A stretch of DNA of 64,000 nt, from the NCBI RefSeq assembly GCF_037975245.1, contig NC_092579.1, positions 6,881,001-6,945,000 of the forward strand, in the 5' to 3' direction. Positions 23,064 to 47,629 of the stretch are shown one piece after another. How positions within the stretch are numbered: the first letter of the stretch is position 1; every line of letters starts with the position of its first letter. This DNA comes from Apostichopus japonicus (Eukaryota; Echinodermata; Holothuroidea; Aspidochirotida; Stichopodidae). The notes below the pieces were generated by a model. That model saw nothing but the letters and a program-made list of their open reading frames with translations. It had not been told where the DNA came from and searched no databases. The position numbers were made by a program, and so were the translations under genes.

Positions 23064-26000
23064 TCATTCATACTCCAAGATTCTCTTGTGATAGAAGAGT
23101 AGATATCTGTAATGATAAAGAGTATACAAAGATGGTTATTCATACACTGTAGCATGTCATTTAAGTACGATATATTGTAGATGAATCATGTCGGAGGCTC
23201 ATCCATGACAGAAGTATCTTTCTAACTGTCTCGAGTAAATATTCGCCAATATAAAGAAGCGTTCCATTTTAAATACATTGAGAATCCGATGTTTTCTAGA
23301 GCCTAACTGTATACTGTAACTGTATAGCATAGAGATCTGTAGCATAGAGATCATTGCATGTGTGAACTTCAGAGAGCGAACTGTAAATCTTGAAAAAGCT
23401 AAATGTAAATTTAAAGAACAGTATAAAAAAAACTCACTTCAAGGAATTCATATGACAGGGTTTCTCAATTAATTTTCTACGAGGGAAAAGCATTTGTTGT
23501 TTGCAGGAGGCCAGACAACAATCTCACTATACCTACAGATTAAATCTAAATTGTGGACAGATATTTTTTTTATTTGTGGGCCAGACTGAAATCTTTCGCA
23601 GGTTAGATTTGGTCCACAGCCCCACATGCCTCCTATTGACAATCCGTAATACACAATATCAGTAGTAGTACAGCCTAGCTATCAAATGAATGGCAGTGAA
23701 AGTGCTTGTCCAAGCTATCATAAACAAACAGTTCAAGGTTCACATAGAAAGGCTGTAATCTTTTCCCAACTTGTTTTGTAATTACAAATGCAAACCTGCC
23801 AGCTAACGACATTACACATCGTTACCGCAATCACTAACGAATCTCTGATCTGTATGATTAAACTATTCAGCCATTTAAATGCAGAATGAAATAGGATAAA
23901 TTTACCCTTCACTCTGGAGGACATCTTGTTTAGTTGCTCTGGTTATCATTGCATCATCGCATTTAAACCACTGGTCTCTGTGTTGGCGGACGTAACATGT
24001 GTAGTGACCGTGGTCTAGAGTACCTAGGTGATTAACCACCGCAAAGAGTGAATACCTGCAGAAGATATCAAGCGTAAAAACTCTCACATTATGGTCCTGT
24101 TTGTTAGAATTATGTACAGTCTGGAGAAGAAGGGCGGAAAAAAACAACAATCCAATTCCTCCAAATGTAACTTTACGAAACAAAACTGTACTCTTTAAGA
24201 AAAAAGGTATGCTCTATCGTTGTGTTTGCAAGACAAAATGGGCTCACATGATGCATGGTTGACAAGTAAAATGAAGTAATTACAGAAAATTGACTGTTTT
24301 AACAGGGTAAGTGTACAAAATATGAAAAGTTATATATCAAGTAATGAAAAAAAATCTGGAAGGAATGACACTGGAGTATAGGGGAGGGCAAAGCAGATAT
24401 AAAGGTGGGTGTAGAAGGGGGATTCTGCACATGAATAGTCACCAATGGACTAAACATGTGGCACTTCAAATCATTGTTCATCCATAGTCTATGGACCCCT
24501 TTATACCTTTCCCTACACACCATCTCATATGTCATTAAAGGGTGTGAAGACTTGCGCAAAAAGAAACGTCTAATGCTGGTAATCTGACCTAGTTTCGAAT
24601 GAGGTGTAACAGAAGTGTTAGACACCAATCACACCACCATCGATCCCAGAAAATACACACACAGCTTGCTACCATCGGTCATTAGACACTAGTGTACAGT
24701 CAGTAAATACAGCTGCGGTCAATACCCACAGCACAGTGTACAAACGATACAGCGATGGACATCTCAGGTCCAGCTAAAGATAACAAGGTATCACGTTTCA
24801 TTACTGTCTGCATTTTGTAGCGACACTAACAAAACGTCACTTGCAAGCAACGGAAAGTTAACTTTTTCAGAGCGCGGCACGCGGTTTGGGGTGAGTCTTC
24901 AATGCCTTTAAGATAGGGTGGAATGTGGGATAGATGATGGGATGTATTGACTTGAATTTTTTGTTTGGGATAAATGTGTCATGGTTTTCATGTTGACCCA
25001 CTCTTAGGAGCAATCTGCAATCACTCACCTGTTATCACTAAGATGTCTTCTATTGGACTGCACATTCTCCCGTAAACCACTAGCTCTCCGATGTGTGGAC
25101 ATGTACGGCGTCATGTCCAGCTCGTGAGGAAACGATATGAACGATGATATCTTCTTCCTCAGCTTTGAAGAATGTTCGAAACGCTGCGGAGAAATAAGAG
25201 TCAGTAGGTCAAATGAAAACCGAGAGCTACTCGTTACTTTGTAATTTCGACAGACGACATGAAACACTACATGCAAAAATTCTCCACTAGCTGATAGAGG
25301 GCAGCATTATGTTCAGGTTTGTACAACTACAGTCATGATAAAAAATTTTATGAAGACCTATGCAATGAACAACAAAGCTAAACAGAGACAAATACATCAT
25401 AACATCTTGACGTCGCACAGAGAAATGAATTTTGACTCTTATTCCTCTAGCGTGAAAACTAAACGAGGCTCCAAATAACCTTGTGTGCTTCAGTTGCAAG
25501 ATGTTTATTAAAGAAACACTCACCTTCAGGTGGAAGCAGGCAACCAGAGGCAATTTTTTCATTGTGAGTTGTTTTGTCGATTCTTGATAGCTCTGGCAAC
25601 TGCTGCACTTAATTTTGGCACTGCTACCGAGATATTCTGGACGTGTGAATCTTACATTGAGAACAAATACAAGAGAAGAGAAAATCAAAGATAAACTTGC
25701 ATTGAAAGTCAAACAATATTTACTATTTAGGGATCTTTTTTATTAAGGACTTAACTACCCTTTAAAAGAATATGTTTCATCGATGCACATTCTGCTATCT
25801 TCTGTAAATGGGACAAACAAGTACGTTAAAAGGAGAAATCAGATTGAGTGAGTAGCTGCATTCTTCTACATTCTCTCCTCAAGTTCTATTCTATATCGAT
25901 CTCGGCTTAGGGAATTACTTACAAATTCAATGGTTTATTAGAAAGCTTCCAGTGACAAGTTCATGTGAGAGGAGGCATGACAGTTAAACACTAACCCTCA

Positions 26001-29000
26001 ATATTGTAGAAACGCGAGTGCACTGTATCTATATTAAAAGTATGCTGAACAGGTTTTGATATCAATAAAATAAAATTTCTGCTTCGTTTTTGAGGCATAA
26101 TGATTCTTTCGCAATATTAGCACTAGAGATCTGGATGCACTAGTTAACCATGATGCTACCGCTGTGCATGCTTTCAAACAATGTCGCAAAAAAAACAAAC
26201 AACTACAACAACAACTTAAATATGATAAATGTTGATGTGTTGCATGAAATAGTAAAGCTACCTTCTAAGACAATCATCTAAGGAATGGGGGACATCTTCA
26301 AACCCTGGAGGTGACATGAGACCGGTCTCAACCTCCTGAGAACTGCTACTACTAGTACTACTTCCTGAAAAGAGAAAAGAAAAATTAAATATTGAAATGA
26401 ATTCATTTGGCATTCCATGTTGGAATCAATCAACAGAACTTGAGCATTGTGATTAATTGCAAGGTACATTGCCAACACTACATTGCCATCCATACGAACA
26501 GCTGAGCACAAAACACATAGTTGGATGTTTCACACTTGTTAGTTTTAAGACAGACTTAAATAGGGAATAATTGATGCATTATCGAATAGCAAATTACTAT
26601 GCAGAAACAGCAAACTTCTATACAAGTCCAAATCTGTGTAGCAGTGTTTTGTACCTTGGCCTAGTTTGATTTACATGGTGACTTTTGAACTCGATCAGAC
26701 CAAAATATAGTTTGACCTTTGACTTCCATCAGTTCTGTGTGCTCACCTCAAGGTGCCAAATTGGTTAACCTTAGTAACAGATTATGCAATTTCATGGTCC
26801 CTTCCCTTTTCAGTCTGTTATAGTTGCAACAAAATATTAGAAATTTATGACAAAATTGTCTTTGTGATTTCCTCCTGCATTAGTTTCATAGGTCTAGTCT
26901 TAACTTGCACATTTACCTGAGGAGTTGCTATCATTAAAATCTGGATGTGCTGATGGTGTGGACCCTGGAGCTGGTGTGTGTGTTCCTGTTGGGGTCACCT
27001 GTCCTCCAGATGGACCCAAGTCGAGTGATATGTCCCAGAATGGATCTACTGTTATAGAGACACCCCTGAAAAAAAGGAAACACTATAAATACAAACAAAT
27101 CAATGAAAAAAGAAAAAAAAAAAAAGAAAGAAAGCAAAAGTAGACGGGGACTGCAAAAACAAATTAAAAAGAATGCTATAATACTTGACATAAAACTTGG
27201 TAGTTTATGGAAATCTAATGGCAGTTTATAGTAAGATAATGCTGATCTTGTCAGCTGTCTAACTCCTAACACCAAAAGAACATTGCTCAATTTAAATTTA
27301 AAAATTTTAAATGATGGGCAACAAGGTCCAAATGTGATAAAGAATAATGGAGGTATTCAAGTGCACAGCAAATTTGTGGTTCCTATGCATTCAATTCCTG
27401 CTGGGTATCCAGAAATCCATGCTAAGGAGATGTTTGGGTGATGTTTGGGAAACTTTCAACCATTGACTATGCTCTTAATTAGGAGAGTCATAATATTGTT
27501 CTAATCTACTCTTAAGAGCAGGTTTTGGATTCTAATTTTTGTTGTTGACATGATTCATGTTGTTTCATTAATGTGACAAACAACGTTGGTATCTTTCCCC
27601 TTACTCTAGAAAATTGCTTTTGCAAACCAAATTAGTCAAGTTTTTGTATAATATTTGTTTTGATTTAAATTTACAAAATGGCAAGCAAAATATGGCACAA
27701 AACTATAAGAAGAATAAACGCTAAAGCACATCACTGCAAAAATGTCATTCACAAACTTAAACTACATGCATTATGTACTGATGATTACAACAGCAAACTA
27801 CAGTATAGAACTGGGGACTACAATACGCGGATTTCATCCATATCCTGTTAGACTCCAGTCGGTACCGATGTGTCCGGATAATACAGACGCTACCTGTACT
27901 CACTTGCAGACTTGACACATGACATCTGATTGTAGACCTCCCGTGAAAATCTGATCGATGATACAATTGCACCGATTTGGGTTATTTCCTGAGGTGCCGT
28001 TGTGACCTGTCAAAAAAACGAACGGGATATACTTGTAGTATTAAGAATAAAATGCACTCGAAGCAAACAGACACACCCTTGTATGTGAATGTGAAAGGAT
28101 GATTGTTAGAACAAACAACACTTAAACAATTTAGAATGAAAGCAAGGTGGATGGACAGAAGAGTAGCAGGACAAATGGCTACTGTACACTTTCAGTTTTC
28201 AGTTTCTTAATTCCAGTTTAAATAGCATAAAATACAATTTATAAATAGGAGAGTATAAAAAGTTATGATACATAATTGACAATAAAAAGGCATTTCAAAG
28301 GTTAGTAACACAATCAACAGTTTTCAAAAAGTAAGTCAACTAGGTATAATGAGGAAATATCAAGACTTCTAGAATGACAGCAGGTAGCAGCTACAGGTAA
28401 AGTAGCTACAATTAAATCTACAACATGGACACATGGGCAGCCAGGATTGAATCTATCAAAGACATTTTATCAATGTGTGTGGAAGACAGAGACTGATGTT
28501 TCAAGACATTGACAACAGACTCGCAGCAGGATGGACCACAAAAGGTGATGCACTGAGTGACTACAAAGGGTGACCCAGAAAATTTTGATCAAAATGATGG
28601 TATAGATACCTTTACAGTGTCTGTGTAGAACATCTAGAGCTGCAATAAAAAATTCATGAGCGTCTTGTTGTTCGTAGCCCGCCAGGTGACGAGCGTGCGT
28701 CCAGACAAGGTGAAGCAGCTTGTAAGGAATGTGGACAGAACGCAAACCCGAGTAGAACTGTAAAGGGAGAGGTCGAGTTTAGTTATGCATCATCGGTAAA
28801 CAATATTCATATCCTAGCACCAACAACTATACTTCAAATTACAAATTCATTCACAATAATCTTCAATATTTAATAAAGATCTTACTGTCTCCATTTTTAG
28901 GGCGTGGCTACTGGGGCCTTGACCCGTGCACCCCCCCCCCCACCTCACATTAAGGGGAGCTCCACATATTGACATTAAAAATCACTCTCTTGTAAAGAAG

Positions 29001-32000
29001 GGGCGATATATATCATATGCAATCGGCATTACAAGTCTCACAAGTACAAGGCTCAACCTGCTTTTACAATATATCATCTTGGACTAATATCTAGGCTATA
29101 AAGAAGGTTCCAAAATGACTGAGGGTTAGGACCCACAAGGATAGGTTAAGTAGAACTCAATGCAAACTATCTCTTTACTAGATTACACACTATGATGTGG
29201 TTTCCCTGTATCATAATTTAGCATAGCATAGCATAGCAACACTTGAACAAATCTACACACCTTTTCTTAACTCTCTTCAATGTATAGCAACTGCCTCATA
29301 TTAAAAGTAATTTACCAAGTTAATGAAGTCATTTACCTCTTGAAAAACTGTGGACATTTCACACACAAGGCACTGATCTTTAGGGTCTCCCTTACTCTGG
29401 TAACGGTGGCTACCTTCCTTTCTCTTGCACTGGTGCTTGTCGGACAGGAAGAAATCTCGTAGCAGTGGTGTATGAGTCAGAGCTTGCAGAATGCAGTTCA
29501 TGAAACAGGTATTACCTAGATTAATTAAGCCTCTTAAACCTTTCATTTGGCAAGAGGAGAAGGTGGGGGAGTGGGGAGGAGGTGGGGGGAAAGGTGAGGT
29601 AAGAAGAAAAGAAAACAAAGTATTAATGACAATGACCACAACCCAGCAAACTACTCCTCACAAAGTGAAAGAAAAAAAGGTTTAAATCTGTTCCATTAAC
29701 AAAGCAAGTTTTTTGTTTACACAAGGCGAGACAAGTGCTTCTATCCCATTTCATATTAACCTTTGGAATACTCAACTCAATTTTTATTGTTTGTATTGCA
29801 TAAATTATTGACACATTTTCTGGGCAGTGACTACAAAGAAGTCCTCTTTCAGTTTCAAGATGAAATCCTTGCAGTAGTTTATTCACCATTTCTTCAAGCT
29901 ATATTTAACAATCTTAACTATAGGGGCATAATTCTTAACACAGAACAAGTTTGTTCCATGAATATATTTAGCACCTCAAATATTTGTGAACATGGCAAAC
30001 ATTGGTTAAAGTACCTCATTGATGCAGGACGTAAAAAAGTACTGTCTGCTATTCATATTATTAAACTTGCTTCCTTCACAGAGAACTTCCCAATAAGTTT
30101 TCCATTTCTGCTTTTTTTTTTTGGTGCAAAAAGAAATTAGTGTTTTATTAACAGTTTTATTATTTTAGTATTCCAGTGCTATACACAATGATAAGTTTGC
30201 CATGCCACACTCATGAGGAGCTTTGATTAGATGTATAACAATAGTTAAATATTTAAACTGAATAACAAAGGTTTAATACCAATTCCATTAACATTGTTAC
30301 CATTGTCAGTCTCTATAATATTCCAAAATACATTTAATTTTTTGTACCTATTGTTGAATTGAAAGTAACCCTTCTTCTTCTTGGACTTCTTCTCAATAAA
30401 CTCACTTCAGCTCTTGAAGCCTCCCAGGGGGTAAACTCCCAGCCGTTACAACCTACAGAAAGCAAAACCATAGCATTCGTGAATTCATCCCTTTGTTTCT
30501 TGCATATGTTTTCCATATTTAAATATCACGTAGGATCCTTCACTTCAAGAGAGTCAAAGACACAACTATATGTGACATAAGCTGACCAAGAGAACCATCT
30601 TTTGTTTTCTTTTACTGGTCATCAGTAATATCCACAAATATGATAGAAAAGTCAACAAACAATTTACTGCCACTATTGTAGCTCATTCCGTCATTGAGAG
30701 TTTGTGTCGTTGTTAAATCCTGTTTTGCTTTCTTTCTTTCAAGTTTTTTCCTGTGCAATTGAAAGTCTTTAACAACATTGCATTTCAGTTTCAAAGGAAA
30801 CATACACACAGCTGTTTGCATGGCACAGTATTGCCGTGGTATGATTGCCACCCACATTTCTGCACTGTCTATCTCAGCAACGAAACATTGAATCAATCAG
30901 TGACTGTTATATCTTGATTTAATATTTTACTGAACTTGCTACTTCAGTTTCCGCTTTCAAATATTTACCTTGATATCAAACTTACCTAAAAATTTGGAAG
31001 CTTTTAACCTTTCTTCCTTGACAATTGCTTCAAAATCTTGATCATAAATGTAGTCGTTGCAAGCAAAGCAGAATACTGCACCATAGGAAAGATCCACAGC
31101 TGCAAAGATAACACTTTTATATATCATCATCCATTGATATTGTTATGCATATATGCAAATTACCAGATTATGAATAATCATGAAAACATTCCAAAATGTT
31201 GAACATTTCCAATTTGATTCCTGTATTAAGTGATAAACACTTTTAAGCAAGAGTGTTTTGGCCAAGAGATGTTTACAATCAAATCGACTGCAGGCCTCAC
31301 CAATAGTGGTGCATGTAATGCCAAAATCTAAGAGTCTGCCTTAGTTTGATAAACTGCCATCTTAATTTTAATAACATTGGAAGTTTGATGAACAATCACA
31401 AAAAAGTGGTAATTTGCTTTCAATCCCACAAGTGTGACTTGTGGCTTATTGTGCAATTTATCCATTGTCTGCTGTCAACATTTGCAAAGAAAAGTAACAC
31501 AGAAGACACATGGAGTTAGCCATTTCAACATGGGACTGGATTCACATTTTTGATAATTAGTTTGTTCATTTATTCAATCTTTGCAGCTATTGTGTACATT
31601 TACACTAAAAAATAATGTCCTCTGGTTCTATCTTTGAAAATTTTAAAACCAAATATCCTTGACCATCGAGTTGAAACTGTAAATGCAAGTGAACCAACCT
31701 CTAGCCCAGCATATGTTCCATTTCAAACCGCAAATAGTAAATTGAGCTTGTTTTGTCATAACATTGATCACTTGTACTTAGCAAAACGAATGGAGTAGGT
31801 TGATATGGCAACGTTTTGAAAACTTGACACCCAGCCAACATAATTTCTTTGTTACTGGTAGAAGATTAGACGAAATAACGCAGAGATGCCAAACTTGAAG
31901 AATACCTTGGCAAGTGCACTCCTGGGAGAAAAAGAAGGGGTTCCAAAGAACCAAACAAGATCATTTCCTGTTTTTTTTTAGGAATATATGCAATTAATAT

Positions 32001-33556
32001 CAGCATTCACTGTACTATGAACTATCTATTTAGATTGTTCAGATTTAACAAAACAAATTTTGGTAAATTCCCTTTAACCATAGATAAAGCAATTGTGTTA
32101 TGGACAAAATATTTCCAAAAAGAATCTTATCAAACAAATATCTTTAAGAAAGGATTAATTCCCTAAAATAATTTCAAGACACCACTTTTTTTGGTCTCAA
32201 CAGGTCATAGGTTATCATACTGAAAACAGCATTGACAACTTATTCACAAAGTTTGCGGTATCATGTTACACAATTGTTCATAATGACAATCATTGGAGTA
32301 ATCATATTGAGGAGGAAGTAAGTTAAATATTATTCAGTCATTGACAACATTTCATACCCAAATAATGTTTGTTTGTTCTGAAATGATCGTGAATGTGACC
32401 AAGACTGTAACAACCAAAGAAAACACAGTGCAAACAAGAGTGTAGTCTTTGTTGATGTCTCCGACAGGTGTGGCAAACACTTCCTCTTGCCTGTTGAACA
32501 AAAATATAAATATTTGTTACTTTTATTAATTGAGAAATAAGAGCAGACTTATATTTGCTGCAGCAGTTGCCATTGGCTTAATGTCATTTCCTTGCAATCG
32601 TAAGTATTGTAACTTTATAATACAGATTATACTTCACATATTTACTAATTAATAACCTTATTAATTACTGTAGAAGTCTGAAACATGTCACAGAATACTA
32701 TGCTAGAAATTATCTTCTACTCAAAACATGTACATTTCTATCGATTAATCAGTGAATAGCACAAATTCATCAAGAGACGTTGGGCTATATTAGGCTTAAA
32801 GGTTGTATCCCTAAACATTGCACTGTGCATTATATGGCACTGTATAATTGATTGTTTATGTTGAACCTGAGATGAAGGCAGAAGTTGACAGGCATCAGTT
32901 CTTCAAAAAAAGTTCTCCTAGGTGTTACCAATCAGTCTTGCAACAATACTACAATGGCTGGCATTATATATATGAAAATTGAAACATTTACAAGGTACAA
33001 ACTAGTTTTACCATTCAAGTGATACTGTAGGTAAGCCTACAAACAATCACATGCACCCTTCTGTCCTAAACTAAACTGTTTTCATTGTTTCGAATGAGAT
33101 AGCTTTGCAGTTGGATGATCTGGCTATTATGCGACTAGTCTGTTGTAAGGGTAACGGTGATATTTCAAGGCAATACGTTAAACGTCAATGTCAGAATTTT
33201 CGGAATACTAGAAAATTATCGGTCACTCGTTCTGTTATTGTTAGAAACATTGTGGGCCTACTACTACTACTACTGACTACTAAGCTCTCCTAGCTTAATT
33301 CCTATTGCGTTGTTCTTCTTCAGCTCACCTTCCTTCGCACACTATCTTTGGAACTACACAAGACAAAACAGCTGATTATTAAACGATATGAACTTATTCC
33401 ATTCTCTTTCTTGAAAGAATCCGCATGAATGCAACCAGAATAGCTCATGACGGAAACGGGGAAGAAGGTTCCCTCGGAAAACTTGGGTCTGGAGCAAATT
33501 TCTAACATTCGTCTTTCTTCTTTGAAACACCGGGGCTCTCCCAAATCGTTCACCAT
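23064..33556 (-). CDS. USP22: USP22-like SAGA-complex ubiquitin carboxyl-terminal hydrolase, complete, 13 exons
   Basis: USP22 is the deubiquitinase of the nuclear SAGA coactivator, removing ubiquitin mainly from histone H2B. Exons in transcript order are 33329-33556, 32358-32490, 30986-31099, 30348-30452, 29337-29539, 28610-28757, 27904-28006, 26917-27065, 26262-26364, 25524-25650, 25029-25183, 23906-24055 and 23064-23106. Lengths sum to 1761 nt (586 aa plus TGA), with every phase consistent. Residues about 42-135 form the ZnF-UBP domain ([19 protein letters not shown]). The Cys box is [15 protein letters not shown] with Cys205, the His box [11 protein letters not shown] with His540, and the partner acidic pair is at WFKCDD (556-557). 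The protein ends YHKRILEYE. An in-frame stop abuts the first Met; Met37, just before SYSGC, is an alternative start. Human USP22 has 525 aa; the extra length lies in the N terminus and in a loop coded by 26917-27065 and 26262-26364. Confidence 0.96.
23906..24055 (-). CDS. USP22: USP22 exon 12: histidine box
   Basis: The exon encodes [20 protein letters not shown] followed by [20 protein letters not shown] and [15 protein letters not shown] carries the catalytic His and CDD the third triad position. The donor GTAAAT leaves two bases (GG) that are completed by the 43-bp last exon (23064-23106), encoding [14 protein letters not shown]. Confidence 0.95.
24535..24911 (+). mobile_element. TTAA-type MITE, copy 3
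   Basis: Intact borders: TTAAAGGGTGTGAAGACTTG on the left and GAGTCTTCAATGCCTTTAA on the right. The two ends are inverted repeats of about 18 bp, and both carry TTAA, the duplication left by piggyBac-type transposition. It lies in the USP22 intron between exons 11 and 12. Confidence 0.8.
28610..29539 (-). CDS. USP22: USP22 exons 5-6: catalytic cysteine box and QQDAHEF box
   Basis: Exon 5 (29337-29539) contains [20 protein letters not shown] with the nucleophile Cys, then a slightly expanded [18 protein letters not shown] loop before CLVCEMS. Exon 6 (28610-28757) contains [20 protein letters not shown] and [19 protein letters not shown], nearly identical to human USP22. The two are joined in phase 0. 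Confidence 0.95.
32358..33556 (-). CDS. USP22: USP22 exons 1-2: N terminus and most of ZnF-UBP
   Basis: Exon 1 (33329-33556) encodes a variable leader and then [20 protein letters not shown] and [15 protein letters not shown], giving the first Cys-x-His zinc pair. Exon 2 (32358-32490) encodes [20 protein letters not shown] and [17 protein letters not shown], with the remaining Cys/His ligands. In SAGA, this zinc finger is the part that binds the ATXN7/ATXN7L3/ENY2 module. The intervening intron is 838 bp. Confidence 0.92.
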
Positions 33557-33783
33557 TCAGCTCAATGATCACAGACAGGTACTAAAATTAGATGTTCCCG
33601 ATAAATCATTTATCTACAGTTTTCATATAAAATGAACAAAATGCAATCCTAATTATGTTTAATTAGAATAAACATATTTTTTAGAAAATAATTAAAACTT
33701 TTTATATGAAAAGCTATGTGATTAAATATTTCAAAATTAACCAATTCCTAGTTTGACATCTAAGGTGGTTTTCGAATTATTCC

Positions 33784-33826
33784 ATACGCATTGCACATGC
33801 GTATTGTCAAAACACGAAACTTCCGG
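33784..33826. promoter_or_regulatory. Possible USP22 promoter elements: NRF1-like inverted repeat and ETS site
   Basis: About 230-270 bp upstream of the first USP22 codon there is a perfect 8-bp inverted repeat ATACGCAT / ATGCGTAT separated by 5 bases, resembling a weak NRF1-type palindrome. An ACTTCCGG ETS/GABP core follows at 33819-33826. Such pairs are common in housekeeping TATA-less promoters. Function is inferred from motif and position only. Confidence 0.35.
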
Positions 33827-35009
33827 GTTATTTCAGACAGTCTCGATGGTAGTAATATGGACGGTGCACGTGTAGAAAGTAAACAATGGTGATCAGCTGA
33901 CATTCAGTCCCGACTGTAACGATTCGAAATACTCACCAACGTTACGACGAGATTGGAGCTGTTGCAGGAGGGGTGGCTTGACAACAAGTAAATATATCGA
34001 AACGAACTATTATACTTGTGGGTTGCATATTTTAAAGTGAATGAAAGAAGAAAAAAACATTCACAAGGTAGGAACGGTATGATGCTTGATCTGATCAAAT
34101 TTTGGGCTGACATTTGTTGACCGGTGGTTAAAACTAGTTTAGTAAATAATGCCTAGCCTAGTAGTAGTAGTAGTATGTAGCTTAGTCAGGCATCATAATA
34201 TTGGAAGGTGCTGCCAGTGACATAACTAGTCTATGCATAAGCTTATATTATGTACAAGATATGGTAGTACTACTACTAGTACATGGTAAGTAGCATATTT
34301 TGTAACTGAACCTAGGTATGGGGACATTAGTGGCATAGTGCAATGTAAGACACAGTTATCAATAATATTGGTTGTCAAGGTTAGGCTATGTTGCCTACTC
34401 CCTTTTCTTACGTTGTGGCTATTTACCCAATTGTCAGGTGGAAAATCATGGTGTTCATGGCTAGTCATCCCAACCACAATCTGTGAGCTGAGAGATTCCT
34501 CAAGCTAGAGAAGAATAAATTTGTGTGTATTCGCATCACATCTCAAATGTCGAAATGTGTTAAGATGAATTATATTATCTTAGTGTAATATCACTGTATA
34601 AAAGACTATGTAGCATATCCATAGAAATGTAAATAAACTTTGTCAAATATGCTTGTAAGCAGTGGCATGCACAGGATTATGGGGTCCTCCCAGATAAGAA
34701 TAAATAGACACGAAATGGTGCATTCTAAGGCATATTTAGGCTATAATTTTAATTTATACTTGTGTAACAATGAAGGTTGGGCTAATAACCACTTTAATTT
34801 TGTAATGTATTTTAGAGGAAAGAGTTGGAAAGGGGAGGGATGTGTACACCCACCTCCTTGATCCATTATCTCCCATCATTGCCCTAAATAAGCATTACAT
34901 CAGATACATTAAACCTCTATCAGGTAAATAAACATTCCTTATTTAACCAAAGATCGGGTAAAAAAGCGCAGTGCAACTAACGATGGCGTAAATAAGCACC
35001 AGAGCAACA

Positions 35010-35082
35010 CTTATCAAGCGCCATGAGCACCTTTGGGCAGATGCCGGCGCTATACAAAGTGTCCATTATTATTATTATTGAC
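35010..35082 (+). mobile_element. SINE 3' tail fragment
   Basis: AACACTTATCAAGCGCC ... GGCGCTATACAAAGTGTCCA followed by five ATT units. It shares the GCGCTATA[CT]A-A tail type with the SINE at 43058. The 5' tRNA-like part is absent. It lies in the USP22-DHRS7B intergenic region. Confidence 0.5.
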
Positions 35083-36424
35083 CCAATGATCCGGTAAATA
35101 AGTAAGGGTGCCATCCTTATTGAACTGTTAATTGAGAATAGCTCCCACAGTTTAATTTTTGTTGTTGATAAGTTTAGGCTAGGTTCCACCATGAAGAAAT
35201 TGTGCTTTTAAATTTTGATTTTCATTTTGTTAAAAATCCTGGCAAATCAGGAAGAAATTGATACAAATCCTTATTACAAAACAAACAAAGTAATTGCAGG
35301 AAAGTTACAGCCAATGAAACTGCTCAGTTGTAGTATAGGCCTAGGATGAAAACTGTAGAAACTAGTGACCAACAAAAATGTGTACAATAGTTTGCAAAGT
35401 TTCCAGCATCCTGAGCAACCCAAAGGAATTTCCCAACTCCTTTGTGATTGAAAAGATGCACTTTCCAAATTCATCCTCCAGTGATCAATTTCACATCCTC
35501 TCTCTCCTAAAGTATTGACTTGCCCAAGCTCTGTAGACCAAACCTGCCTAAATTTAGACCAAATTATCATCTTAAGAAGGTTGACTAATGAGAAATATCA
35601 GTTTTGGTGTTTGATGTCACTTGACTTTGCTGTTATACGATTTGGCTGAAATTCTACCTACTGTAGTTGGGTGTCGATAGAATATAGAATTATAGAAACA
35701 AACCTAATTTTAAATTTGTGAACAGAGAGATAGCCTTCTGCTCATAAATCATTGTTAAAAGCAATAATAATAATTTAATAATCATCAGCTGTTATTTTTA
35801 CAACGCTTTTGAAGCTACCACAAATGTGGGAGAAATCCGCAAGGGCTTCTGGATTACAACTGACATGTCAAGTGGCTCCCAATTCAACATTTTAACTCAA
35901 ATTTGGAATCTTTACAATTTGGAAATCATTTCAAAAGCACATATATTACAATCTCCCTTTGAACCATGCAGCTACTGTACTAGCTTCAGATTATAGTACA
36001 GTAGTCTTGCAGTGGTAGAGATTATAAGCTCATGCTGGCAATTAAGCTCCATGTGTTTCAAAGTTGGGTTAGCAGCCATTAAGGGGACTGACCATGAGCT
36101 ATTATATCAACATATTACGTACCACATTGCTGGGAGTGCATGTGACAGTGCCTATAAAGTGAGTAGGACATAGACGCATGTATCACCAACCAAGTTGAGA
36201 ATGATGGAGGAGCAAACATAACCAGGGAATTTTTTTGTGTTGTTTTTCTGATGCAGAATTTATGTCAGGCCAAATTCAGGAGGGGAGGTAACACGGTTAG
36301 TACTGAACAAAGTTCACAAATTTATGGTAATTTAAGCATAATTAAGATATTACGTTGTGTATGTTGTAATTCTTTTGTTTTGTTGCATTGTACTTCTAAG
36401 ATATCCAGTTTGTAGAGATGCAGA

Positions 36425-39400
36425 ATGTTGTCTGTCCAACAACACCTCACCAGCACTCCATCGGTGTTGACGGCAGCAGTATTTGGTGGCCTGGGACTAC
36501 TATGGCTTTACCGTAGACTGACAAAGAGACAAGCAATAGCCTCATTGAAGGACAAGGTTGTGTTAATTACTGGTGCAAGTTCTGGAATTGGTGAAGGTAA
36601 AGTCGGTTTATATTGATTTAAATATAATGCAATATGGAACGATAACTGATGAATATTCATGAGTTACAGTAGTGGCAAGAAACAGGCAGTTTGGACAATT
36701 TTACAATGCTTTTTGCCACTATATGCTGTCCTCTAATATCATGCTTCAAAGCACTCATACTGACAGTATGAACAGTTCCTAACCTTTATCTGCCAGAAAT
36801 AGGATATTCATACTGCTTGTGCTGTCATTACAAGTGTTTTGAAGCATGATTGAGAGTACAGTATATAAAAACTTTTATTATTTAATTTTTTATTATTGTC
36901 ATCTTAAATGAGGGTAGTCCTGCTCAGTGCAAAAGCACTGCTTTCCAGAGGAGCCCTCAATTGGGTGCAAGGAATTGCATTAAGTTATAAGATTATTCTC
37001 AATGATTTATTCTGTAAACTCTTGAAGACATTTGGTGCTAACCTAACCTGATACATTAACTAAAGGCTTTGATCTACAATCATTAAGAAATATGACACTG
37101 TTTTCAGAGATATTACTAACAATATTGCTTGTATCATAAAAAATAAAAAAACTTCAGTTACAAGCCAATATTTTCTTAGTTCTAAGTGAACACTCCCTTG
37201 TAACTTTAACACAAACCATAATATGAACAGCTATGCAAGAAAAGAAGTACATTCATATCATAGAGATAGAGAGGGAAGCAAGGCCCCTAGTATTGACGTT
37301 ATTAACATATATAGTAGTTCTGAGTAAACTATTTTCATGTTAGACTCAATATCCATAATCCAACTGTTACACCTATCTCCTACCCCATTCCCACTTATCC
37401 TCCCCACCCCACTTTCAAAATCCACCCCCAATTTCTATCTCCACCTCAACTTAATACCCCTGACTTACCTTTCCGAACCCCATCCTCTACTTAATACTTA
37501 CAATATATCTAAATATTTTGTTACTTCCAAGCAATTTCTGTGTCTTACTTTGACACTGTTAATTTTCTTCATCTTGGATAACTTTTCACTGGAACAGGTT
37601 TTCTAGAATTCATACATAATCTTGGTGTATACTTGGCTTTATCTTCCATACAGCTTGTGCTCATGCTTTCCATAAGGTCGGCTGCAGGGTAATTATCAGC
37701 GCAAGACGCTTGGAAGAACTGGAAAGAGTGAAAAAAGATGTAATATCAAGGACAGTTGTAAGTATTTTGGTATGTTTTCATTTTGAGACACTAAAGACTT
37801 TGATTGTGAACCTTCATGGTTCGGTTGGAGGATTTAACTATAGGTCCAGGGTCCAGGGTAAAAAGCAACAGGTATTCCAGGAATTGTAACTAGCACTAAT
37901 CTTTTACATACATGTATGATGTTCACCATGTTATTGTTTTTGGTAGGGATCAAAGGTCCACGGAGGTCTAAACTTAAAAGCACCAAGAATCAAAACTTGG
38001 CCAGGGATTTTACATGCATCATTGTTTTTCATATGTCCAATATCATTTCAGATCAACAGAGGTTAAAGCCTGAAAATCTTAATGTCCATAATGAGTTCAA
38101 GGTCCCTAGCTTTTAAAGAACAAACTTGATTCTTTCTTGACAGGTCGTTTCCCTGTGATGAGAAGAAAATTTTAATTTTTCCTTTAATAGTAACATCTAT
38201 TTGCCTAGATATAGTGATACTTGGTAGATCCTAATAAGACTATCATTACTGCTTCTTTAATGCATGGTGTTCCATTTTCTTACATGTCAAGCAACTGCTG
38301 AGAAAGTTATCACTCTCTATAAATGCAAGAAAAAGTGTCTTACAGTTGTCAAATTACAGGGGAAGGAGAATGTATGTCCAGTATTGCCTTGAGACCATAA
38401 ATGTTTCAGTATAGTGGCTTGATTGGTGTCATAATAGGACTATTCCTGAAAACATTTCAATAATGAAACAAGCTACTTTGTTTGTCTACTAGCTCTCTTG
38501 GGAGTAGTAGCCCAGCTAGCCTGTTCAGAAGTGAAGGCTTAATTTGACCCGATCACATGTTTTGTTCCATCTCTCAATTGTGCTCTTTGTGTCATCACAG
38601 GAAGGCCAATCTCACGAACCACAGGTCATACAGATGGACGTCTCAGACTTTGCCTCGATCCCAGATAAGATCCAGACAGCCCTCTCGTACCATGGTAGGA
38701 TAGACATCCTAATCAACAATGCGGGACTTTCTTACCGAGGCTCTGCCTTGGAAACCAAAATTGAAGTCTACCAGAAACTGATGCTTGTAAATTATTTTGG
38801 ATGTGTAGCTGTCACTTCTGGTAAATAAACATAAATAAATGTTGTGGATTTTAACTAAAACTTTCCGATATAGTCTGGGTTGAAATAACAAAGGATACCT
38901 AAAATGAAAAACAAAAACCTTCAGGCTGACTTTAATGGTCAATCATGCTTATAAATCCTCCAAGATAAGATATCAACTCATGGTGTCGAATTTGGTTATA
39001 AATTTTTAGATTCTTTGCACAACTGCTATGCCATTACAAAACACTCACATGACTAGATTTCTATTTTTGATAACTTTTCATTAATCAACCTTATACTTGA
39101 TTCATTGCTTGTGTTGGTAAGAATACTCTTGATAACATTACTACTTTCATTAATCAACCTAACACTTTATTCATTGCTTGTCTTGGTAAGAATACTCTTG
39201 ATAATACTGCTACAAACTATCTTAGGTAAGAGATGTTGGTAATCAGTCTGTTTGCAGCTGTGCAAAGACTTTTACAGTACCTTCGGAGAAACGAGTTAAC
39301 CATCCTAAAATTTCATTTTATTATAGTAAGACAAAATAATATCATTTATAATGTATTTGAGATGTTGCTTGTAAATTGCAGATCAACTGCCTGTCTCTTT

Positions 39401-41618
39401 AGTCACTCACTAGTGAGATGGGAGTAAACATAAAATTAGAAGGTCAATTGCAACGTTAATCTTTAATTGTTTGTTTCCTAGCTGTCTTGCCCTCTATGAT
39501 TGGAAACAAGGGAGGAAGTATAATAGCTGTCAGCAGTGTGCAGGGGAAGATAGGTCTCCCATACCGGACAGCGTGTAAGTAGAACAAGCTCCCATTTAAT
39601 TATGTATTATTATCATTATGTATGTATTATTAGTAACAGGTGTAAAGTACTGGAGATGCATATAATCAATGCAAAGACAACAGACCAAATAAGGCACAAC
39701 ACATTATGTGTGTAAACCTTGATCTAAGAGCTGAACTCAAAACTCATTTTTTATTTCTTTTACTAGTGTACATAAAGTTCATTGCACAGTTGGATGCACT
39801 TTATATAAAGCAACTGTTTATAGCAAACTGCATATTGACTTCCAAACAGCCAGTGTAAAAAAATATATTGAAGTTAGAGGGCCTGCGGCTTCTTCCTTAC
39901 ATGATTTCCTTTGGAGACCAACTAATTTGAACACATAGAGAAACAGGTTAAGTGGAGTGGAAACTACTCGTCCCACAGTTCAATGTTCCAATTTCCTTGA
40001 CTATGAGACCTATATTCGTCTCAGTTTACTATGATCAGAAATTGTTTTTTAATGGTTTCGTGTGTTAGAAAGCCGGAATGAAGAAACCGGAAGTGTTTGC
40101 CATTTTTCCGCTTCGGCAATAAATTTGTGGATTGTATGTTATCAATGGTTGTACTGTGTAAATTTGTTGAATTTGGGTCTAATGATTAGAATGTGGAAGA
40201 CCTATGACAACAGTGGTTGCTTTTGAAGTTTCTTTAAAGTATGTCAGAGTGGAGTTCAAAAACAAGTGAGCTTAAATTACTGCATGCATAACAGTAAACA
40301 ATTTCCACTTCTAGATGGCAAGTTCGTAATACACAAATCTGGTCTGCATCTGTTTAGGTTTACATCCTCAATGCTCTGGTTTTCACATATTTTTTACGTT
40401 TTATTCTTGTATGTTTACAGATTCAGCATCAAAGTTCGCTGTGCAATCATACTTTGACTGTCTACGAGCTGAAGTAGCGGAGCATAACATTCATATTGGA
40501 ATCATTAGTCCCAGCTACGTACAGACAAATCTCTCAATTAATGCAGTCTGTGCAGATAATAGTCAACATGGAAGTAAGTCAAATATTATCTTCTTCTTTT
40601 TTGCAAAAAAAATGCTATGTTGTATGTTAGTTACTAGTTTGAAGAATTGAGATTCTATGCGCCATTTGATAAGTTCCCCTTGAAAATTTAGGTTCCAATC
40701 CCCAATTAGGAACCTTTTTTCTGCAATCTTCTTTTGGGAATCCATGTACACAAATATGTTTGATTATGTGTTTCATTTTACAAATAGACCAACTCATACC
40801 CACTATGTTTGATTAAACAAATTCTTTTTATACACAGACAAACCTGTACACAAACATCCTGTCGACCTAAATCACCTACTTTCAGTACTGACATACATAT
40901 AGTATGCAGTCACATCATAAGTGTTTTATTGATTACAGTACAATCCATGATTGTGATTTACCAATTGCCCTTTCTTTGCAAATCGTTCTGAATGTCATTC
41001 AAATAGTGCACTGACAGACTGTACATACTGAATTAGTTCACCAAACTTTCTCCAAAGTCACTAACTATACATTACTGATCCTATAATCTCCCCTCAGTTT
41101 TGAAGATGGCTGTCTTTTGCACATAGTTGGAATACTGGTTATGTAGTCTAGAAATGCCAAACAAGTTACAACCGACATACTCTTTAGATACTTGGGAAAT
41201 GACCATTGAACTACCTCGTAGTCAAACCTCTATATCAATCCTAAATATTTGTTTGCAATCTGCAAATATTTTAACTGAATTGTTTGTAGTTTGAGTCTAA
41301 GTTTCGTTCCATTTCAACTTTTACAAAATCAATCTTTTCTCAACCAGTATTTTGTTCACCTGAAATGGTTCAACCATTCAAAGATAAATATCATAAATAT
41401 TTGTCTCCTCAACAGAACTAGATTCTACCACTGCCAAAGGGATGACACCTGAGTACCTTGCAGACAGGATTGTTCTCCAGACAGCTTTGGGTGAAGCCGA
41501 TGTCGTGGTTGGGCCATTTTTGCACTGTATTGGTGGTACAATTAATGCCCTTTTCCCAGCTTGGATCAGAATGGTAATGAGAAAGCGAGCAAAGATGGGC
41601 ATGACTGCAGAGGATTAG
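36425..41618 (+). CDS. DHRS7B: DHRS7B-like short-chain dehydrogenase/reductase, complete, 6 exons
   Basis: DHRS7B (PexRAP) is a membrane-anchored SDR at peroxisome/ER that reduces acyl- or alkyl-dihydroxyacetone phosphate in ether-lipid synthesis. Exons are 36425-36596, 37654-37757, 38601-38820, 39482-39574, 40421-40573 and 41416-41618; phases are consistent and the total is 945 nt (314 aa, TAG stop). Residues 12-31 form an N-terminal membrane anchor. The cofactor motif TGASSGIG is at 49-56, NNAG at 131-134, and the catalytic set is Asn156, Ser184, Tyr197 and Lys201 (YSASK). Exact family blocks are NNAGLSYRGSALET, NYFGCVAVT, VSSVQGKIGLPYRTA, FDCLRAEV, ISPSYVQTNLSINA and DSTTAKG. Human DHRS7B is 325 aa. 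The exon 4/5 junction splits the catalytic Tyr codon. The gene is divergent from USP22 (about 2.9 kb apart). Confidence 0.96.
36720..36867. mobile_element. TA-flanked foldback MITE in DHRS7B intron 1
   Basis: About 148 bp with inverted ends of about 34 bp. The left begins TATATGCTGTCC and contains CATGCTTCAAAGCACT; the right contains AGTGTTTTGAAGCATG and ends TACAGTATATA. TA at each edge fits a Tc1/mariner-type duplication. It has no coding capacity. Confidence 0.65.
39077..39212. repeat. 69-bp tandem duplication in DHRS7B intron 3
   Basis: TTAATCAACC at 39081 and 39150 opens two copies, each with TTCATTGCTTGT and GGTAAGAATACTCTTGATAA. Confidence 0.8.
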
Positions 41619-41932
41619 AAGCCATGTAAATATAATCCCCTCCCAGCAGGTGGAATTCATTACATGACAAGTCTCAGAAATATCTATTAGAAATTTCAGA
41701 TTCTTTGCTGTATATAGCATGTGTAACTTATCTGGTTTAATATTTGTTTCCAGCTTGAAAAGATGGAATCAGCTTTGGGGATTTATGGTGATGGCTTTTG
41801 AGTGAATTTCCTTGGAAATCTTGTGCTGTCAGGAAAAACATGAATGCTCTTGAATCGGCTTACAATGTATCTGTTATGCAAACCAAACATGAATGTTTCA
41901 AAGAAACTTTTGTAGTGCAATATTAGAAGAAG

Positions 41933-41938
41933 AATAAA
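41933..41938 (+). terminator. Candidate DHRS7B polyadenylation signal
   Basis: An AATAAA hexamer lies 315 bases after the DHRS7B stop codon. Further AATAAA hexamers occur downstream, including 43501-43506, so this choice is tentative. Confidence 0.4.
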
Positions 41939-43057: not shown

Positions 43058-43436
43058 AGGGCGTTGTGGTCAAGTGGTTAAGGCAGTGGACTTGTGATCT
43101 AAGGATTACAGGTTCGAGCCCTGGCCAAATCATTGCATGGTGTCCTTGGGCAAGGGCACTTTATCTCCATTGCCTCTCTTCACCCAGGTGTATAAATGGG
43201 GACTTGCGAGGTGACTTGTTAATATAGTTGCATGCGCCGGTTTGTTGCTGCACCCTATGGGAAGTCCCACAGGGGACACGTGGCTGTGGTGCACTCTGGT
43301 GCCCCAGGAGAGATTTTTGAATTGTGCACACTTTGGTGTGTAGGTGTGACAAGTTAACAGTAACTAGGGCTAAGTACAGCGCAGCGAGACTTTATTGTAA
43401 GTTGCGCTATATAAGAACTGTTAATTATGATTATTC
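43058..43436 (+). mobile_element. tRNA-derived SINE
   Basis: The 5' part has an RNA polymerase III A box (GTGGTCAAGTGGTTAAGGCA) and a B box (GGTTCGAGCCC) spaced as in a class II tRNA (Ser-like). The body includes a conserved-looking TGCGCCGG..GTTGCTGCACCC region, and the 3' tail GCGCTATATAAGAACTGTTA is typical of SINEs mobilised by LINE partners. It lies between DHRS7B and TMEM11. Confidence 0.75.
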
Positions 43437-43709
43437 TGTGAGAACCCTAAATTTTTTCTAGTGTGATGTGAAATCAGTGTCATTTGTAACTCATATTGAA
43501 AATAAAGATAGAAATACAAATCATCAAAATAAATTGTCTCTCTTTTATTTAATTTCCTTTCATGTCAATCAAACAAGCAATTCCATGGGAGAGTTACAGG
43601 TAACACTCAAATTTACATTTGTTATGAAACAAATTTAATTTCAAATCCGTGTAGTTGGAAACTTTCAATCTTTTTTGTGTAAACCCTGTGTGCATATTTA
43701 CGCATTTTA

Positions 43710-43917
43710 TTTTTTATTTAGGGACAAGTTATTTGATCCTGAAGCAGGTGCATCAACTATGGCATTAGTATATCCAGACTGGTTTTGTATTAGAATAAAT
43801 CAAGGTCTTTTTATTGGCAAAGTAGTAACAAAAACATTAAAAGATCTGAAAAAGTACAACCCTGTTAAAACACTTCCCAAAAATTTAGAAAAGATTGAAT
43901 TGTGCACAATTTAGCAT
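43710..43917 (+). CDS. Orphan open segment, possible exon
   Basis: After a TTTTTATTTAG acceptor-like tract an open frame reads RDKLFDPEAGASTMALVYPD, WFCIRINQGLFIGKVVTKTL and KDLKKYNPVKTLPKNLEKIE, ending LCTI and TAG. The composition looks protein-like (balanced charge, repeated Lys-Asp-Leu) and not repeat-derived, but I do not recognise it. It lies 2.1 kb after the DHRS7B stop on the same strand. It might be an alternative last exon, a gene fragment or chance. Confidence 0.2.
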
Positions 43918-44879
43918 TGATATGCCATAGTGTGTTCTAAAGTTATTCCAATTTCGAAGGTAATCCCCTTAGAAGTATTAATATTCGGAATACTCCTTTA
44001 AGATTCCATAGAAAACGAGTTCTTCAGCCCTAATCTAAGCGTTAGTCCATTGTATCAAAAATTTAAGTAAACAAAATTTGTTCTTTTAGCTTGAATCCAA
44101 CACCCATCAGAGCAAGTGGATGACACTAAAATCAGAAGCAAATTTGTGATCCAATGAAACATGTAACTTGAGACCTTAAAGTAACCTCTCTTTGGAGTCA
44201 ATTCTGTATTGCCTTTGAGATGTTGACTTATCAGTCTGTGTTTGGCCATTTGATGAGCCACTGATGGGTTTTTTGGAAATTTTATCAATATCTCAAGAAA
44301 TCAAATTGGAATAAAGCAGTACAAACTTGGACTGTTTACAGGCTTTTATCTGCCTAAATGTATCAAAATAAACTTTATACTTAAAGTAATTGATATTATG
44401 TGCTATAAATTGTAAACCTATTGTATACAATAAGGAGGGGAGGGTGGGGAGTGAAATTACATGGTAACACACACAAATGGGGGAGGGAGAAGCATGCACA
44501 ACAACAGTTGTGCACATGAAGGGCTGGGCATGCCCCTCCCTCCCCCCCCCCCCTCTATTCCACCATGTGTACAACTTCACAAGTGACAGACAATGCTCAC
44601 CTCTCATGTCAGAACATGAACCACAGGCAGTTCTTATATGTGTCATACAAAGTCTTCATGGCAAAACAGGATATTCTTTAATATTCTAATAAGTTTCCCA
44701 CATTGACTTCTCGGCTGTACAGTACGTGCTGTAGTCCGGATCTGATCAACCAAATCTCCAACAGGAGAACAGCACGTAAGTCTTGAAATCTTTGTTTCAG
44801 CTGAAATCAGTGAACTGGAAACATCATCTTCTACACAGTAGAAAAATTATCAGCTACTAATTAAAGCCAGTGCCAAATG

Positions 44880-45665
44880 CAAGCTTAACAAACCTGTTTT
44901 AAGAATTACTCAAAAATAAGATTGCTTCAAATCAACCTGTCCATCACATTCACTTATAAATGTTCACCACCTTTGGAACTCGCTGGGTAGTTTCCAAACT
45001 TTAACCAACTCTTTATGTGCTACATTAAGTTCATTAAGAATACACAAATCTCAACCTGATCAATCACCAAAAAGACTGTTGATTGAAGATCTGGTTGAGA
45101 TCTGCACGATACTGCAGAAATCCAACATAAAGGCTTTTGGCGACCATGACTCTTTTCACGGTTCACATCGTTCATACTGGTCAATCATTCATACCAATGA
45201 TCTACCCAGTCAGTGATTGGCCTCAAGTAGCCAAAAAAATCTGGCATCTTACTGTGTCCTGCAAAGGCTGGTGCCTTTAACAAACTCTAATTATGAAAGC
45301 AGCTGTTTGCATCTGGTCACCAATTTCTGTCTAACTTAACAAACCTGTTTCAACTTTCTTCAAATTCGATTGTTTGAAATCAGACTACGACTCCAGCATT
45401 CAAAGTTTTTCAACCAAGTGAAATTTTAATCAGCCTTCAAAATGAAACTTGATGAACTGGGATGGGCATGGAATTAACATTTACAAAATTTTACAAAATT
45501 GCTGTGTAAAACTTTTTTAATAATGCTTTAATTTAAAAGTTCATGAGGAATACACAAAATTTAAAATCTGATTAATCACCACAAAGAATGCTGATTACAA
45601 ATCTGGTTGGGTTCTGCAGAATATTGCAAAGTACCAAAACTGCCTTAAGTCTCTTTGTTGGTTCC
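44880..45665. repeat. Diverged tandem duplication, unit about 450-510 bp
   Basis: CTTAACAAACCTGTTT occurs near 44885 and 45336; AAGAATACACAAAT near 45036 and GAGGAATACACAAA near 45545; ATCTGGTTG[AG]G plus TCTGCA near 45091 and 45602. Spacing is uneven, so the copies have indels. Confidence 0.55.
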
Positions 45666-46177
45666 TATCATTGATGGTTCCCAAAGATATGTAGAGTCAA
45701 AGATTGTTCAAATGCCCAAACAAAGTTGTTTGGCAAAGGCAACTGCCATACAAAAAAACTTAGAATAATGTCAAACAATATTATCTGAATCCAGTGTCCA
45801 TAAGAAATTGCTATGTGCATAAATGTATGTGCCTGGCCTTGATAGCGGTTTTGACACTGAGTCTTGTCTGAATTTACAAACAATACTGTCCAATATTGTG
45901 AAAATGGAAGATTTTTAGTTCGGTTATAATATGATGCATGTTAAAGCAGAGGCAGGCCAATTTTACACAGTAGTTGTCAAAAATTGATAATAATACTGTC
46001 TGCACAGAGTCATCATGAAAGAACATAATATCGTCAAAAACTAGAAACCCTGGTCTGGTATCAAATCAGTTTGTTATTGCTAATATTTTAACATATGAAT
46101 ATTAACCTAGATGCATCCGATTTTGGAACCCAGTGCTATCATGATATTTCTAGTGTAGACAAAACATATGTACTCAT

Positions 46178-46183
46178 TTTATT
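46178..46183 (-). terminator. Candidate TMEM11 polyadenylation signal
   Basis: An AATAAA hexamer on the minus strand (TTTATT on plus) lies about 285 bases past the TMEM11 stop codon. Confidence 0.4.
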
Positions 46184-46467
46184 TTAATTGGCCTGCAGTG
46201 AATAAATACACAGAATACAGATTGTCTTTGTCTTTTACACACAGGGATACTCTTTTTTTTCCCTCACCTATCTTTGCCACAAAATTGCTAAAATCCCATT
46301 CAGTAAAACATTTCTTAAACTTCTCAAATTTGTACCAAAATCTATTTTTGCCTTTTTTTCAAATTTCACATAAGTCCATGCAAACCTTCCAGATAGAAAA
46401 CACTCTGCTTTTGGAAAATAAACTACTTTCCTCTGTGGACGTTTGTTGTTTCCGTTCATTCCTTTTT

Positions 46468-47629
46468 TCATTGATACATCCAGTGGTAGAACTTATGGCC
46501 CATGTACACCGCCGTCACTGCTGCTATCAAGTTGTGTAGAGCCTTTCTGTATTTGTCATCTTTGCGAACCAGGACCACAGGGGAGGACGTGCCCAACATC
46601 TGCATCGGTAGCTTGGTTAGAACCCCATAGTCATATTCCACTTGATACTTACAGCATGGATCAAACTGCCACGATACCCCATATATAGAAGCACATATGA
46701 TACTTAAAGTTCCCATAGGGATACTGACGAAATTGGCCAAGTCATTTTGAATTAGCATTGGGGCAGCTAAACAACTCACACCTGCAAGTACTGCAGTTTT
46801 GTGGAGACAGTTTCCTATAGTGATCCACTTCGCTGTTTCATCACCGAGTTTGGCAGGTTCGATAATAATTATACCTCTCCGAGCTTCTAGGGCTTGGTCT
46901 AGATCAATTTCAAACTGCTCTTGAGCGTTACCGTTATCATAGATTTCTTGAATAATTGCACAGTCAAGAGGCAGAGCCTCCCTAAGAAAACAAAAAAAGG
47001 AAAGGAAAAAGTACAAACAAGTGTTCTAACATCAAAGCGTTTTATGATATAATAGTATGTGGAACATTAATCTTCAAGAGGTTGTGGTTTCTGCAACTTC
47101 ATTGAATGATTACAAGGCAAAATTGGACAATCACTGGAATCTTAATAATGAGGAACTGTATTTGTTTTGTGAACTGTTGTATCTATTTTGCGCTGCAGTT
47201 AGGAGTGCCTAAAAGGACTTTCCTTTCTTGGAGCCCGTCAGAAATCAAGTAATATTAACAAACATAACTTTGACTATAGTATTATTTAGCAGAATGAGAA
47301 GCAGAACTATTTCATGTCTACTGTCTCCAATTAAGCTATTTTATACCTCTTCTAAATTCGTTGACATTATGGAAGAAAAAAGGCGATTGAGATTTATTTT
47401 AGCGCTCGCCTAGGTCTACCCCTTTGTGGATCTCATGATCCAGCAGTCTGTAGTAGTGCAGAGCTAACTCAAGCTTGGCCTAACTTAGTTGGATCATTTT
47501 ACCACATTTTTTTTAAAATAATAGGTAAATTAATATAGAACGTGCAAAAATAGTTGTTGAGGATTCCATTCAGGTCGATCATAACGATAAATATTAGCTT
47601 ACTTGCCTTAAGTATTACCTCTTTACCAT
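46468..47629 (-). CDS. TMEM11: TMEM11-like mitochondrial membrane protein, 2 exons (first tentative)
   Basis: TMEM11 (PMI in flies) is a mitochondrial membrane protein that controls mitochondrial shape and cristae. The main exon 46468-46981 follows a TTTTCTTAG acceptor in phase 2. It encodes EALPLDCAIIQEIYDNGNAQ, GDETAKWITIGNCLHKTAVL, SWQFDPCCKYQVEYDYGV, SSPVVLVRKDDKYRKALHN and a last hydrophobic segment ending HWMYQ before TGA. All match human TMEM11 blocks (GDETARWITVGNCLHKTAVL, WQFDPCCKYQVEYD, TPVVLVRKDD). Three hydrophobic segments are visible. A possible 11-nt coding part of exon 1 (47619-47629, MVK plus two bases, GTAATA donor) fits phase 2 and would give 174 aa against 192 in human. 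The main exon is certain; the start is not. Confidence 0.9.
47619..47629 (-). CDS. TMEM11: Tentative TMEM11 start exon
   Basis: ATG GTA AAG AG followed by GTAATAC gives phase 2, which matches the phase 2 acceptor of the main exon at 46981 and restores Arg-Glu-Ala. The vertebrate protein also has a short variable N terminus coded by its first exon. Other ATG/donor combinations upstream cannot be excluded. Confidence 0.35.

Follow-up and report, generated by a model that had tools for sequence, protein, structure and literature searches.

In the pig, USP22, a long non-coding RNA (lncRNA), DHRS7B, TMEM11, NATD1 and MAP2K3 follow each other in this order, and COPS3, FLCN, PLD6 and MPRIP lie together with USP22 on the same side of the lncRNA (PMC11240794). 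For human, a table of the region 17p11.2 includes USP22, DHRS7B and TMEM11 (PMC3422354), and a single amplicon of 461 kb takes in these three genes and MAP2K3, their order being unstated (PMC5132233). Small sets of unrelated genes that likewise stay adjacent over long times are described as conserved metazoan microsyntenic blocks (PMC8851819). Here we report on the same trio in a stretch of 64,000 nucleotides of the holothurian Apostichopus japonicus (contig NC_092579.1, positions 6,881,001 to 6,945,000; the window in the following), where USP22 on the minus strand, DHRS7B on the plus strand and TMEM11 on the minus strand are neighbours within about 25 kb. Very probably, they form a block retained from the common ancestor with the vertebrates and kept mainly because breakpoints are rare, to which a head-to-head promoter may add constraint. 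Among the papers found for the trio, or for DHRS7B together with TMEM11, no title concerns this synteny.

Gene models and identity of the products

Exons were spotted among the open frames with human sequences as a guide, and they were joined solely where GT/AG sites left both frames open. For the USP22 junctions, the alternative matching human USP22 was chosen. The resulting model of USP22 (23064-33448, minus strand) has 13 exons without internal stops and encodes 548 amino acids. Exons 1 to 7 correspond to 33448-33329, 32490-32358, 31099-30986, 30452-30348, 29539-29337, 28757-28616 and 28006-27904, and exons 8 to 13 to 27065-26917, 26364-26262, 25650-25524, 25183-25029, 24055-23906 and 23106-23064. 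The DHRS7B-like coding region (36425-41618, plus strand; 314 amino acids) consists of six exons at 36425-36596, 37654-37757, 38601-38820, 39482-39574, 40421-40573 and 41416-41618. The TMEM11 coding region (46468-47674, minus strand) has two exons, 47674 (or 47629)-47619 and 46981-46468. Translation could start at the in-frame ATG at 47629 (174 amino acids) or, with 15 additional residues, at the upstream in-frame ATG at 47674 (189 amino acids); neither is preferred. The introns of the three models are 340 to 1,258 bases long, and the G+C content of the window is 37.5%.

The ATGs of USP22 and DHRS7B are divergent and 2,976 bp apart, while DHRS7B and TMEM11 lie tail to tail, their stop codons being 4,849 bp apart. 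The adjacency of the three genes and their strands, which had been proposed in the original prediction, are borne out by complete splice models and domain matches. The proposed boundaries also agree with the models: the USP22 stop codon (TGA, 23066-23064) ends at position 23064, and 47629 is the downstream one of the two possible TMEM11 starts mentioned above.

The USP22 product contains the Pfam domains zf-UBP (2.7e-12) and UCH (1.9e-66). Among the best 60 of its 109 matches to solved chains, the closest is 6tbm_Q, named "Ubiquitin carboxyl-terminal hydrolase" (8.3e-69), followed by 4fip_A, "Ubiquitin carboxyl-terminal hydrolase 8" (2.5e-54), and USP15 appears only after them (9.5e-41). We take the 6tbm and 4fip chains to be SAGA-type Ubp8 enzymes of yeasts. 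The TMEM11 product matches PF14972 (Mito_morph_reg, 6.5e-70) across residues 25-183 of 189. A phmmer search of TMEM11 against solved chains up to an E-value of 1 resulted in two matches, the better of which (0.019) is labelled as a LysR-family regulator. Searches of USP22 against viral contigs and of TMEM11 against prokaryote genomes gave 5 and 20 pattern matches, respectively, none of them encoding a relative.

The product of the central gene matches adh_short (1.1e-51), and its translation has the cofactor and catalytic motifs of the SDR fold (TGxxxGxG, NNAG and YxxxK, here TGASSGIG, NNAG and YSASK). No DHRS7-family name occurs among the best 60 of its 623 matches to solved chains. When aligned with human DHRS7B, DHRS7C and DHRS7, it reached scores of 601, 455 and 385, and identities of 118/295 (40.0%), 83/219 (37.9%) and 102/280 (36.4%). 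Since the letters of the human references are provisional, this comparison of paralogues is a lead and not a test; it points to a reductase closer to DHRS7B than to DHRS7C or DHRS7, with an identity less firm than that of USP22 and TMEM11.

USP22 is the histone deubiquitinase of SAGA, DHRS7B a membrane short-chain reductase, and TMEM11 a mitochondrial membrane protein that shapes cristae. According to established knowledge, the three products are functionally unrelated, and therefore no operon-like logic is needed to account for their neighbourhood.

Several repeats were observed in and around the three genes. A repeat of about 0.38 kb is present in four copies, at 266-632, 11865-12236 (inverted), 24534-24919 (in a USP22 intron) and 62295-62693, which are pairwise 80.6-86.3% identical. 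In the first DHRS7B intron, about 150 bases (36720-36867) match their own reverse complement at 73% and perhaps represent a hairpin-type element. Between the 3' ends of DHRS7B and TMEM11, the sequence at 43060-43132 resembles the tRNA-like head of a possible short interspersed element (Rfam tRNA, 29.4 bits; cut-off 29). This was the one tRNA-like stretch just above the cut-off in the scan of the window for RNA families and tRNAs, and ARAGORN found no tRNA gene.

Comparison of the gene order with vertebrates

The order USP22-DHRS7B-TMEM11, predicted to be vertebrate-like, is identical in the window and in the pig (PMC11240794), and it fits human, where the same genes lie in the 461-kb stretch (PMC5132233). 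Three probably orthologous genes are thereby adjacent in distant lineages, when the window is compared with the pig order and with the human gene set in support. By our estimate, a given trio would stand in a given order by chance with a probability of about 1e-6 to 1e-8. Since the adjacency is real, matches the pig, fits human and goes far beyond chance, we infer that the block was inherited.

The trio is common to human 17p11.2 (the Smith-Magenis region), its pig counterpart and the window, but the surroundings differ. In the pig, the lncRNA separates USP22 from DHRS7B, and NATD1 and MAP2K3 follow TMEM11, whereas in the window a TMEM184-like exon follows TMEM11, and UBE2O precedes USP22. The block described here measures about 25 kb, while the human block together with MAP2K3 lies inside the 461-kb amplicon. 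In human, chimeric DHRS7B-TMEM11 reads were found to map to opposite strands, which their authors regard as a possible inversion (PMC5861515). These reads apparently fit DHRS7B and TMEM11 lying on opposite strands in human, as they do here. Human USP22 is presumably located on the minus strand.

The mouse deviates from this picture. A list of expression-profiled loci of mouse chromosome 11 B2 gives the succession Dhrs7b, Tmem11, Gtlf3b, Gtlf3a, Map2k3, Kcnj12, Tnfrsf13b and Usp22 (PMC2990707), and we read it as positional because its first gene is the anchor Cops3 and its last the anchor Zfp179. Dhrs7b adjoins Tmem11 in this list, as in the window, but unlike here six genes, from Tmem11 to Tnfrsf13b, stand between Dhrs7b and Usp22. 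Among the papers found, this was the single one to name Tnfrsf13b, Usp22, Kcnj12 and Map2k3 together. If the window is an outgroup, the separation of Usp22 and Dhrs7b in the mouse is derived. We infer that the adjacency of USP22, DHRS7B and TMEM11 is ancestral and that one rearrangement or more led from it to the mouse order. If the DHRS7B-KCNJ12 segment of the pig and human order were inverted, most of the succession seen in the mouse would result. A single inversion as an explanation for the whole mouse order was considered and dropped, since the position of Tnfrsf13b between Kcnj12 and Usp22 is left unexplained. Outside the mammals, the axolotl shows physical linkage of dhrs7b, tmem11 and natd1 with map2k3 and kcnj12 (PMC6473073).

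The region between USP22 and DHRS7B

The ratio of observed to expected CpG was computed in 600-base windows, with a threshold of 0.75 set by us. Its mean over the whole window is 0.41, and it peaks at 1.15 in a CpG-rich stretch at 33001-34300, which covers the USP22 start and is a candidate promoter, putatively that of USP22. Around the DHRS7B ATG (600-base windows starting at 36.0-37.2 kb), the ratio is 0.06-0.33. Altogether, there are 12 CpG-rich stretches, which make up 21.7% of the window and in several cases correspond to repeats or exons. Three of the four gene starts (those of USP22, TMEM11 and the TMEM184-like gene) are inside such stretches, and the DHRS7B ATG is outside. When the CpG-rich stretches were rotated, these three starts all fell inside in 4.5% of the positions, which gives weak support to the association. 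Two of the stretches are long; they span 47301-51900 over the TMEM11 and TMEM184-like starts, with ratios up to 1.57 and 1.13.

Within the stretch beside USP22, a motif cluster is present at 33793-33872. It comprises an NRF1-like motif at 33793 (plus strand), the ETS motif CCGGAAGT at 33826 (minus strand) and the E-box CACGTG at 33867. In the whole window, the NRF1-like motif occurs once, the ETS motif twice and CACGTG at five places. The motifs were picked after reading the stretch, so the choice is post hoc. An ETS motif and CACGTG within 100 bp of each other were found in 0 of 3000 island-like and in 1 of 150 window-sized random sequences. Possible splice donors are located in or just after the stretch at 33987 (score 8.2), 34067 (7.2) and 34285 (9.7), within the range of the training sites (3.9-11.5). 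The acceptors near the DHRS7B ATG are poor, with scores of at most 0.5 within 36,380-36,470 and of 4.5 at 36257, when the weakest of the 18 training sites has 5.1. A better acceptor (7.0) exists at 34438, 2 kb upstream of the ATG. A bacterial promoter scan of this intergenic stretch was uninformative for animal DNA.

Why the block persists

The following scenario would account for the locus. An ancestor shared by this animal and the vertebrates would have carried USP22(-) DHRS7B(+) TMEM11(-), and the block would have been kept mainly since lineages that rearrange slowly seldom acquire breakpoints within such a small interval, the promoter region between the two divergent genes possibly acting as an extra constraint. 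As the main reason for the retention, slow rearrangement is the simplest assumption. The original prediction had named it as one possibility and shared regulatory elements of USP22 and DHRS7B as the other. According to the latter, a bidirectional promoter in 33.0-34.3 kb would serve both genes, a non-coding first exon of DHRS7B would be spliced to the ATG exon, and selection would have kept the pair together. As the reason for the retention we regard this as rather unlikely, although a shared promoter as such is possible and locally plausible in this animal, judging from the letters of the stretch. The nearest CpG-rich stretch upstream of the DHRS7B ATG is the one beside USP22, 2.1 kb away, and DHRS7B is the gene whose ATG lies outside such stretches while the other three starts are CpG-rich. 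For bidirectional promoters, an enrichment of GABP/ETS, NRF1 and MYC motifs is reported (PMC10887517), and here an NRF1-like motif, an ETS motif and CACGTG are found within 80 bases, a pairing of the latter two being rare in random sequences. The donors in and just after the stretch are fair. In amphioxus, bidirectional promoters account for 25% of the neighbouring genes (3,950/15,884), and vertebrates have lost most of the 372 that are putatively ancestral (PMC6292497). On the other hand, the two ATGs are 2,976 bp apart, compared with approximately 1 kb between starts in the usual definition, the acceptors close before the DHRS7B ATG stay below the weakest training site, the motifs and the CpG threshold were of our choosing, the three CpG-rich starts are reproduced by some of the rotations, and the ETS site differs from the strict GABP site given in PMC10887517 in that its final base is missing. 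A paper devoted to the human USP22 promoter does not contain the words "bidirectional" and "ETS" (PMC3530469). The stretch may simply be a promoter serving USP22 alone. Comparison with mammals also speaks against a shared promoter: an lncRNA lies between USP22 and DHRS7B in the pig (PMC11240794), and in the mouse list Usp22 is not beside Dhrs7b (PMC2990707), which argues against a strict constraint by shared regulation. For DHRS7B and TMEM11, the tail-to-tail arrangement means that a shared promoter cannot hold the pair. Thus, of the explanation offered in the original prediction, the inherited block stands, the regulatory part is locally plausible between USP22 and DHRS7B, and a strict regulatory constraint on this pair does not agree with the mouse. 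It is tempting to speculate that an element at 33.7-34.0 kb is an ancestral ETS/NRF1/E-box bidirectional promoter for deubiquitinase and reductase, which held the pair together up to the early vertebrates and was disentangled toward mammals, its loss freeing the breakpoint between Usp22 and Dhrs7b in rodents; we consider this improbable.

Two other explanations are less probable still. Enhancers of one gene in the introns of its neighbour could prevent cutting, as in a genomic regulatory block, a principle known for other animal blocks (PMC8851819). We give it little credit, since none of the three genes is a usual developmental regulator according to established knowledge, and for USP22 and DHRS7B the separation in the mouse speaks against it. 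The least probable possibility is that the genes were joined independently or that the reductase is a relative of DHRS7C or DHRS7. The DHRS7 family has several members, and the comparison used provisional human sequences and gave close identities; yet the best alignment score is that with DHRS7B, all three genes stand in the pig order, and chance is negligible by our estimate. Retention of an ancestral block by rare breakpoints therefore remains our preferred explanation, and several points have to be set against it. The preference for DHRS7B among the paralogues depends on those provisional human sequences. The comparison of gene orders covers mammals (pig, human and mouse) and one axolotl list, and usp22 is absent from the main text of the axolotl paper (PMC6473073). 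In at least one mammal, the mouse, the pairing of USP22 and DHRS7B is dispensable according to the list, and the mouse history is more complex than the inversion from DHRS7B to KCNJ12 alone. Finally, MAP2K motifs gave no match across the whole window, and NATD1 motifs gave one loose four-letter match in 41-64 kb (59459-59638), which was dismissed. With NATD1 and MAP2K3 unrecognised, the block does not appear to continue past TMEM11.

Flanking genes and other features of the window

UBE2O (1-16265, plus strand), of which the window contains the 3' part, the 5' end being outside, ends about 7 kb away from the USP22 stop codon. The exons for the UBC core are located within about 10.9-13.6 kb, and the last exon ends near 16.26 kb, this position being approximate; the C-terminal exon was assigned only by its likeness to the human sequence. 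The best solved matches of the UBC core are chains named "(E3-independent) E2 ubiquitin-conjugating enzyme" (5.7e-58); chains named UBE2O reached 4.2e-41 and BIRC6 4.4e-38. Above the Pfam cut-off are SH3-B_UBE2O (8.1e-08, at 2886-3032) and SH3-C_UBE2O (9.7e-09, at 5299-5517). UBE2O is next door, as predicted, but we did not accept its location on human chromosome 17 as an argument for the block: we take human UBE2O to be at 17q25, on the other arm from 17p11.2, and at this distance it speaks at most for an old linkage at the level of the whole chromosome. A chromosome-17 placement is expected for about 1 in 17 random genes, by estimate.

Three long tandem arrays were observed on this side. One, with units of 98 and 26 bases (5541-6751), is apparently in a UBE2O intron; another, with about 42 copies of a 12-base unit (12698-13191), is apparently in a UBE2O intron between UBC core exons; and the third, with about 59 copies of a 14-base unit (17622-18450), is located between UBE2O and USP22.

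On the other side of the block, 51182-51445 (plus strand) may be the first coding exon of a gene of the TMEM184 type, proposed with low confidence on the basis of its likeness to TMEM184B and ending at a CAG|GTAATT donor. No Pfam family above the cut-off matches it, and TMEM184 motifs revealed no convincing further exons in 50-64 kb. To our knowledge, the human members of the TMEM184 family are not on chromosome 17.

Among the remaining features, a 0.29-kb element is present in two copies (3301-3592 and 55242-55532; 93.5% identical), and the long open frames overlying it look spurious. A peptide encoded at 53820-54041 (minus strand) resembles a piece of a retrotransposon reverse transcriptase and has no Pfam match. 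An open frame at 60560-60700 (plus strand) is weakly similar to SSRP1 (E 0.0046), below the cut-off.

Implications

In summary, the block is real, very likely inherited and ordinary in kind, and the separation of Usp22 and Dhrs7b in the mouse adds a useful twist. With the window, a disease-relevant portion of human 17p11.2 gains an outside gene order, which helps to decide which of the mammalian arrangements is ancestral. It suggests that the pig, with USP22 beside DHRS7B, keeps the older arrangement and that the mouse shows the derived one. Moreover, the pair, joined here and in the pig and apart in the mouse, offers a natural test of how much divergent neighbours need each other.

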